A DNA stretch of 37,066 nucleotides. It comes from Verrucomicrobiales bacterium. Its GTDB lineage: Bacteria > Verrucomicrobiota > Verrucomicrobiia > Verrucomicrobiales > V1-33. Shown one piece after another: positions 2-18,979 of the stretch. A program made the position numbers and the translations under genes. Position 1 is the first letter of the stretch. Each line of letters opens with the position of its first letter. Location of the stretch: positions 1 through 37,066 of the forward strand of contig JAGNEJ010000046.1 in assembly GCA_018003315.1 (NCBI GenBank), in the 5' to 3' direction. The notes below the pieces were generated by a model. That model did no database searches. It had not been told where the DNA came from and saw only the letters and a list, made by a program, of their open reading frames with translations.

Positions 2-85
2 GGAGCAGTAGCAGCGGCGGGATTGCTGCTGGGGGTCATCGGCTGGCGCGGACGGCGTTCGGCAGTGCGGAGCCGTACTGTTTAA
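2..85 (+). CDS. C-terminal end of a membrane-anchored or exported protein (5' truncated)
   Basis: The reading frame is open from the left edge and ends at a TAA at 83-85. The 27 visible residues are a hydrophobic stretch (GAVAAAGLLLGVIGW) followed by an arginine-rich end (RGRRSAVRSRTV). A short transmembrane helix followed by a basic cluster at the extreme C-terminus is the layout of PEP-CTERM and related sorting tails, which are common in Verrucomicrobiota. The Pro-Glu-Pro motif itself would lie outside the window, so this is inference. It could equally be the last transmembrane helix of an ordinary membrane protein. Confidence 0.5.
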   Translation, partial: GAVAAAGLLLGVIGWRGRRSAVRSRTV

Positions 86-16569: not shown

Positions 16570-18420
16570 TCACTCCACGGTGACGCTTTTGGCAAGGTTG
16601 CGCGGCTTGTCCACGTCGCGCCCCAGGGCCACCGCGCAATGATAGGCCAGCAGTTGCAGCGGCACGACGTTTAATAGCGGCTGCAGCATGTCGATGGTTC
16701 GCGGCACGAAAATGATGTCGTCGGCATGATCGGCGATTTCCTCATCCCCTTCGGTCGCTACCGCGACGATCGGTCCGCGACGCGCCCGGACTTCCTGCAT
16801 GCTGGAGATGTTTTTGTCATGCAGGCTGTCCTGTGGACAGAGGAAGACCGAGGGCGTCTCCCGGTCGATCAGCGCGATCACCCCGTGCTTGAGTTCCGCG
16901 CTGGGATAGCCCGCGGCGTGGATGTAGGAAATCTCCTTCAGCTTGAGGGCCGCCTCCAGCGCCACGGGGAAATTCGCCTGCCTTCCCAGAAACAGCATCG
17001 ACTTCGCCCCGCAGTATTTCTGGGCGATCAGTTCGATGTGCTCGTTGGCTTCCAGAATGCGGCTGATCTGCGCGGGCAGGGCCTCGAAGGCCTCGATGAT
17101 GCGCCGTCCACCGCTGGCGGAAAGATGGCGCATCCTCCCCAGCAGCAGCGTCAGCAGTCCGAAAATGGCACATTGGGAAAGGAAGGATTTGGTGGCGGCA
17201 ACGCCGATTTCCGGACCTGCGTGCATGTAAATGCCGCCGTCAGACTCGCGGGCAATGGTGCTGCCGACGTGATTGCAGAGGCCCAGGCACCGGAATCCCT
17301 TGCGGCGGGCCTCGCGCAGTGCGCCCAGGGTGTCCGCGGTTTCTCCGCTCTGGCTCACCGCTAGGAAAAGCGTGTTGCGCGGGACCGGACAATTCCGGTA
17401 GCGGAATTCGCTGGCATGGTCGGTCTGCGCGGCGAGAAACGCATGATCCTCCAGCATGTGGGCCCCCACCATGCCGGCATGCAGGGCGGTTCCGCAGCCC
17501 AGGATGATGATGCGGTCGATTTCCCGCAGTTGCTGCGGTGTCAAATTCAACCCGCCCAGTTGCGCGCTGTTTTCCTCCTGATGCAGCCGCCCGCGGATCG
17601 CATTTTCCACCGTCAGCGGCTGCTCGAAGATCTCCTTGAGCATGAAATGCGGAAAATCACCGCGCTCCGCAGCAGTCGGAGTGAAATCCAGCGCCTGGAT
17701 TTCATACGCGGAGGCCTCGTGCTCCAGGGTCTCGATGGTGAAGCTGTCGCAGCGCATTTCCGCCAGGTCGAAATCCTTCAGATACACCACTTTCTGGGTG
17801 TAGGGGAGCAGCGCGGTGGCGTCCGAGCAGAGAAACATTTCCCCTTCGCCCAGGCCCAGCACCAGCGGCGAACCGCGCCGCGCCCCGAGGATCAATCCGG
17901 GATGATTCCGGTGCATGACCGCCACGCCGTAGGTGCCCTTCACCGCCTGCAGCGCCCGTCGCACCGCCTCCACCAGCCTCCGGTCGCCGCCGGTCCGCGC
18001 CTCCTCCGCATAACACTTTCCGATGAGGTGGGCCAGCACCTCGGTGTCCGTCGCACTGTGGAAGACATCGCCCTGCGCTGCCAGTTGCCGTTTCAGCGCC
18101 TGGTAGTTTTCCACCACCCCGTTGTGCACCAGCGCCAGATCGCCGCTCTGATCCAGGTGCGGATGCGCATTGACGTCCGTCGGCTCGCCGTGCGTCGCCC
18201 AGCGCGTGTGGCTGATTCCCATCCGCGCAGGGTGGCCCCCTTTTCCCAAATCCCGCGCCAGTTCCGAAATCCGCCCCGCCTTCTTCGCAATTTCAAAACT
18301 CCCGTCCGCCAGCGTCGCCAGTCCGGCACTGTCATACCCCCGGTATTCCAGCCGCCGCAGCCCGTCGATCAATACCGGACGAACTTCCCGGGCTCCAACA
18401 TAGGCAATGATTCCACACAT
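16570..18420 (-). CDS. glmS: Glutamine-fructose-6-phosphate aminotransferase (isomerizing)
   Basis: GlmS makes glucosamine-6-phosphate, the first step toward UDP-GlcNAc for peptidoglycan and LPS. The 616-residue protein begins MCGIIAYVGAR, so the catalytic Cys of the glutaminase domain is residue 2 after the initiator. RLEYRGYDSAG, THGEPTDVNAHPH and the C-terminal SIS domains (SQSGETADT, ending in DKPRNLAKSVTVE) are intact. In-frame codons upstream of 18420 would bury Cys2, so the start is secure. It is preceded by a 559-base gene-free stretch with a terminator-like hairpin (18543-18569). Confidence 0.98.
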   Translation of the reverse strand: MCGIIAYVGAREVRPVLIDGLRRLEYRGYDSAGLATLADGSFEIAKKAGRISELARDLGKGGHPARMGISHTRWATHGEPTDVNAHPHLDQSGDLALVHNGVVENYQALKRQLAAQGDVFHSATDTEVLAHLIGKCYAEEARTGGDRRLVEAVRRALQAVKGTYGVAVMHRNHPGLILGARRGSPLVLGLGEGEMFLCSDATALLPYTQKVVYLKDFDLAEMRCDSFTIETLEHEASAYEIQALDFTPTAAERGDFPHFMLKEIFEQPLTVENAIRGRLHQEENSAQLGGLNLTPQQLREIDRIIILGCGTALHAGMVGAHMLEDHAFLAAQTDHASEFRYRNCPVPRNTLFLAVSQSGETADTLGALREARRKGFRCLGLCNHVGSTIARESDGGIYMHAGPEIGVAATKSFLSQCAIFGLLTLLLGRMRHLSASGGRRIIEAFEALPAQISRILEANEHIELIAQKYCGAKSMLFLGRQANFPVALEAALKLKEISYIHAAGYPSAELKHGVIALIDRETPSVFLCPQDSLHDKNISSMQEVRARRGPIVAVATEGDEEIADHADDIIFVPRTIDMLQPLLNVVPLQLLAYHCAVALGRDVDKPRNLAKSVTVE

Positions 18421-18538: not shown

Positions 18539-18569
18539 AAAACGCCCCGGAAGAAACCCTCCCGGGGCG
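18539..18569 (-). terminator. Intrinsic terminator-like hairpin upstream of glmS
   Basis: On the minus strand CGCCCCGG (18569-18562) pairs perfectly with CCGGGGCG (18550-18543) around an 11-base loop and is followed directly by TTTT (18542-18539). It lies about 120 bases before the glmS ATG and 410 bases after the stop of the preceding gene on that strand. It therefore either ends a separate small RNA or acts as an attenuator in the glmS leader. Confidence 0.6.
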
Positions 18570-18706
18570 CAGTGCGTGGAATCCCGCTTGTGCCGTCTAT
18601 GGCCGAGAGCGACTCGTTCCCAAGGCTCTACAAAGGTGGCGGCCGCCATCCCAGCTTCTGCCTTCCTGAAAAGGCCTGGCATCGGTCTGAACGGCAAAAC
18701 CTCCTC
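18539..18706 (-). ncRNA. Candidate structured RNA between the 18980 gene and glmS
   Basis: On the minus strand a GATAAT -10-like element (18718-18713) precedes a segment with nested inverted repeats and ends at the terminator at 18569-18539. TGCCGT (18591-18596) and ACGGCA (18691-18696) would close the domain. Inside it, CCAG/CTGG (18651-18654 with 18676-18679) enclose GCCTT/AAGGC (18660-18664 with 18671-18675). No convincing open reading frame fills it and no -35 is obvious. It does not match SRP RNA, 6S or tmRNA as I know them. It could be a small RNA or a leader regulator of glmS. Confidence 0.35.
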
Positions 18707-18979
18707 TACTGAATTATCGGAGCGGGCTCCATGGCCAGGCGTCGCGAACACAGCAGGAAATTCGACAAACTTTCAAAGAACTGCCCGGATTGTGATGACC
18801 CTCCTCCTGCCGGTCAAGCATCGAGTGGCGAATTCCGCCATTTCGGCGGGATTGCTGCACAGTTTCGATCCGCCAAGGCTGCCCAAAATGAGCGCCAGCC
18901 AAACCACTCACAGTGCCAATCCTGCCCGGGACGCACCGCACCCGCGCAGCATCACGGCGCAGGGCGGCTGGATTGCGCC

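Follow-up and report, generated by a model that had tools for sequence, protein, structure and literature searches.

The 37,066-nucleotide stretch of Verrucomicrobiales DNA analysed here (the window) raises the question of what is encoded by the structured segment lying upstream of glmS. A gap of 559 bases separates the glmS start at 18420 from the next ORF on the minus strand, which reaches down to 18980, as the initial annotation had pointed out. For this gap it had proposed either a small RNA in its own right or a premature-termination regulator of glmS, belonging to no known class. When the whole window was scanned against Rfam, the sole match was to the 6S RNA family, RF00013, so that a known class does apply, and it is the small RNA that was retained: as judged from sequence comparison, the segment is almost certainly a stand-alone 6S RNA gene (ssrS). 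The features of the locus are collected in Table 1.

Table 1. Features of the 6S RNA locus and its neighbour, in window coordinates
Feature	Position	Strand	Evidence
Predicted 6S promoter TTGACC-17-CACAAT	18789..18817	minus	9/12 consensus positions; 1 found vs 0.2 expected
boxA-like element AGTTCTTTGAAAG, predicted 6S leader	18770..18782	minus	between predicted promoter and 6S
6S RNA (ssrS)	18577..18762	minus	full length (1-187 of 187); RF00013 score 47.1 bits vs gathering score 46.4
Closing stem, 5' strand CCUGCUGUGUUCG	18745..18757	minus	95.6% of cells paired, 5/12 pairs changed on both sides
Central-bubble motif CCGAUAAU	18713..18720	minus	contains GATAAT; expected product-RNA start
Closing stem, 3' strand CGGCACAAGCGGG	18583..18595	minus	same covariation test as the 5' strand
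Intrinsic terminator of the 6S gene	18542..18570	minus	GCGCCCCGGGAGGGTTTCTTCCGGGGCGT then TTTTGC
glmS, downstream neighbour, outside the RNA gene	16570..18420	minus	Pfam SIS, GATase_6, GATase_7

The RF00013 score is marginal, being 0.7 bits above the gathering score, and the identity of the RNA was therefore tested in three ways. Two covariance models were employed: R1, built from 27 6S sequences of the order, and R2, a sparser model (20 pairs) built from relatives, from which the window and its genus were excluded. With R2, the RNA of the window was detected at 117.2 bits (E 5e-31). In the reciprocal direction, R1 recovered E. coli ssrS, the hit coinciding with the annotated position of the gene (58 bits, E 2.9e-13); R2 missed it. 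Furthermore, the 186-nt RNA of the window and 6S RNAs have the motifs GUGUUCG, CCGAU, CCACCU and CGGCAC in common, and the length is conserved among the 6S RNAs of relatives (181-194 nt). The narrow margin and the ordinary folding energy of the full-length molecule would also fit a novel RNA family with no relation to 6S that passes the Rfam cut-off by chance; this reading is opposed by the score obtained with R2, by the reciprocal detection, and by the shared motifs and the conserved length, and we consider it very improbable. Comparison of sequence and structure together with reciprocal detection thus demonstrates, at the sequence level, both the membership of the 6S family and the structure. 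The gene is an ordinary fresh addition to this family: it resembles E. coli ssrS and RF00013 in length, closing stem, central-bubble CCGAU and CCACCU...GGG motif, and likewise in being single copy, no second 6S match being present in the source genome (a draft of 5.09 Mb in 155 contigs).

In the closing stem of the 6S RNA, 95.6% of the cells were paired, against 29-54% in slid controls, and the structure as a whole performed better than both shuffled and slid controls. The inner helices were paired in 57-59% of the cells of a MAFFT alignment, which gives them weak support. When RNAalifold was applied to the whole set, mostly the outer stem and the apical hairpin were recovered because the inner helices are too variable for MAFFT. 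As the sequences of alignment A1 had been found with RF00013, this alignment favours the RF00013 structure. The folding energy of the full RNA taken alone was unremarkable and uninformative (z -0.66), and the case is therefore carried by the comparative evidence and not by stability.

These comparisons also modify the architecture originally drawn for the segment. The inverted repeats TGCCGT (18696-18691) and ACGGCA (18596-18591), taken to form a closing stem, both exist, but their pairing is unsupported: standard pairs were found in 42% of the cells among 27 relatives, no better than in shuffles. The true partner of ACGGCA is GTGTTCG, located further 5'. The limits set at 18539 and 18718 were misplaced and cut the RNA in two, the 5' limit leaving one half of the real closing stem, its 5' strand, outside. 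The strong hairpin followed by a T tail was correctly seen and comprises 13 pairs. The GATAAT element is present as well (18718-18713, minus strand), as a part of the conserved central-bubble motif CCGAUAAU. In the central bubble, CCG is invariant among the 27 relatives, which carry either CCGAU or CCGUU, and in the alignment CCGAUAAU of the window stands opposite GCCGAUAUUUCAU of E. coli ssrS. Judging from the E. coli case, we take this site to be the expected start of the product RNA.

Upstream of the 6S gene, sites resembling TTGAC[CG]-16..18-CA[TG]NNT precede the boxA-like element in several relatives of the window's family, and in several genomes of family f4, promoters of the type TTGAAT-17-TATGCT precede the box by about 37 bases. 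On the downstream side, the terminator scan alone was not significant, since 1.0 such site is expected by chance in shuffles; a hairpin followed by a T-run occurs at the corresponding place in many relatives, with a differing sequence.

The glmS gene, which encodes SIS and glutamine amidotransferase domains, follows on the same strand, and a cis-acting premature-termination regulator (a riboswitch-like leader) would be favoured by this arrangement, in which the RNA lies directly upstream and its terminator ends about 120 bases before the glmS start codon. However, in every relative in which both were found, 6S and glmS either occupy separate contigs or are separated by 34 kb or more: they lie on contigs C52 and C28 in G001, 34 kb apart on one contig in G019, about 93 kb apart on one contig in G027 and 2.4 Mb apart in G051. 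Among the relatives' 6S loci, none has glmS within 1.5 kb. Owing to this separation, the reading as a glmS regulator fails; the RNA, moreover, scores as a full-length 6S and as no other Rfam class, and we regard such a regulator as highly unlikely. The proposed premature termination is likewise unsupported, the terminator being the one that ends the 6S gene. As a conserved arrangement, glmS regulation is refuted, the position before glmS not being kept in relatives. The adjacency is peculiar to the window's genome among the genomes examined, and the two genes are chance neighbours. To the glmS ribozyme and to GlmZ/GlmY, the likeness is one of position near glmS only; the window differs in that none of these was matched in the Rfam scan and that no link to glmS is conserved.

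The genomic context of the 6S RNA gene also differs from that of E. coli, where ssrS sits between zapA and fau; this is not the case in the window, where glmS follows. In several relatives from other families of the order (for example at loci L163 and L116), pheT directly precedes 6S. The zapA-ssrS-fau context of E. coli and the pheT-6S context of these relatives could be remnants of an old pheST-zapA-ssrS arrangement.

The order and the phylum were searched as well, and the matches obtained speak for the 6S identity. RF00013 matches were obtained in 40 of the 57 genomes of the order, only 10 of the 57 being above the cut-off. R1 detected 6S in 14 of 19 other genomes which were searched again; 12 of these finds had earlier been without an Rfam match and two had a weak one. 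Thirteen scored between 73 and 133 bits, and the remaining one (G008) was partial, at 36 bits. Across the phylum, 97 of the 289 genomes sampled gave a 6S hit. Since the gathering score flags 10 of 57 genomes and the order model recovers most of the rest, it is useful to note that claims of absence for the phylum that rely on Rfam are unsafe. In PMC5673643, a 6S survey is cited solely for the absence of 6S from two Planctomycetes.

The gene of the window further differs from E. coli ssrS in two flanking features, a predicted leader with a boxA-like element and an intrinsic terminator of its own. The leader element AGTTCTTTGAAAG matches the element AGTTCTTTGAGAG of the 16S leader in the window's own genome. 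Within these 5.09 Mb, AGTTCTTTGARAG occurs three times, the third occurrence being antisense inside an hsdS-like ORF. When the regions upstream of 6S were aligned, the pattern [GA][ACT]TCTTTGA[AC]A recurred at a variable distance from the 6S start, among others at loci L006, L007, L016, L017, L019, L031 and L116, and the rRNA operons of these genomes possess a similar element at 120-280 bases ahead of 16S. The string GTGCGCTGCG, which is conserved in the 16S leaders, was not encountered in that of 6S.

Two observations were made on the 16S leaders themselves. At loci L142, L135, L152 and L161, a second conserved string, approximately TTGTGCGCTGCGCG, is located downstream of the boxA-like element and ahead of 16S; it may belong to the processing stem of the rRNA or represent a boxC-like element. 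At locus L134 of G001, a genome of the window's genus, no boxA-like element was found in the 16S leader; misbinning of this 16S contig or a different leader may account for this.

In the rRNA leader, boxA recruits NusB-S10 and further Nus factors, and beyond rRNA its known or predicted clients comprise suhB along with a small number of other protein genes (PMC5725501). The gammaproteobacterial consensus is GYTCTTTAANA (PMC5725501), and it is with this consensus in view that the box of the window is seen to share the core TCTTTGA with E. coli rrn boxA. Like the latter, the box stands upstream of an untranslated stable RNA and downstream of a predicted promoter. Unlike it, the box precedes 6S RNA instead of rRNA. 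In the limited collection of literature searched, no mention of boxA together with 6S RNA was found.

The box is unevenly distributed. It is present in 13 of 13 genomes of family f4 and in 7 of the 8 genomes from the family of the window; outside the order it is patchy, similar boxes being found in f15, f18, f24 and f43. The idea of a box universal for 6S in the phylum was rejected, since Akkermansia, which appears to belong to the sampled order of Verrucomicrobiota (group f2/g5), and the sampled f9 genomes are without it. The idea of a mark of all stable RNAs was also rejected, the upstream regions of RNase P and tmRNA being without the box.

Whether the element is a Nus-factor site has to be weighed against the alternatives that it belongs to the promoter, is some other motif or matches by chance. 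In the window, the box starts just 7 bases past the predicted -10, which would place it right at the 5' terminus of the transcript. It is lacking upstream of 6S in several f3 genomes, in Akkermansia (0 of 11 upstream regions at 9 bits or more) and in the sampled f9 genomes, which lie outside the order and in which the promoter abuts the 6S start. In G001 the 6S box is divergent (GTTCTTTTCCA), and its 16S leader yielded none. On the other hand, with a weight matrix built from the 16S-leader elements and a threshold of at least 9 bits, 26 of 37 non-Akkermansia 6S upstream regions were positive versus 35 of 2350 equal-sized control stretches (1.5%), the genomes being related and the events consequently not independent. 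At the same threshold, no positive was obtained among 23 RNase P and 25 tmRNA upstream regions. The distance from the start of the box to 6S varies between 11 and 55 bases, and the sequence separating the box from 6S, often with a small hairpin, cannot be aligned; this speaks for selection acting on the box itself. Promoters can be fitted in on the upstream side of the box. In addition, G003 carries the same unusual variant GTTCATTGA in its 16S and 6S leaders. On balance, a site without a role in Nus binding is a distinct possibility, though we would lean somewhat against it.

For the 6S RNA gene of the window, the following course of events can be proposed. Transcription probably begins at the TTGACC-17-CACAAT promoter, a short leader bearing the boxA-like element would be transcribed ahead of the 6S RNA, and the intrinsic terminator ahead of glmS would end the transcript. 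The RNA folds into a long hairpin whose central bubble mimics an open promoter, and it should for this reason bind the housekeeping RNA polymerase holoenzyme and, by analogy with the family, restrain transcription. Synthesis of a product RNA from the CCGAUAAU site would then release 6S from the polymerase, again as expected for the family. This general mechanism of holoenzyme binding and release by product-RNA synthesis is summarised in PMC11077062. The leader box, for its part, may recruit Nus factors and so shield the untranslated transcript from Rho; perhaps it also couples the folding or the output of 6S to that of rRNA.

The boxA-like leader is the interesting part of the locus and, as read from the sequence, a modest lead. 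It is nearly an even call, leaning slightly to the doubtful side, that in many Verrucomicrobiota 6S would be transcribed with an rRNA-type boxA leader, with one Nus antitermination complex serving both rRNA and 6S and the output of 6S being tied to the rRNA transcription machinery. If the leader does work in this manner, a regulatory non-coding RNA would be a client of the Nus antitermination complex.
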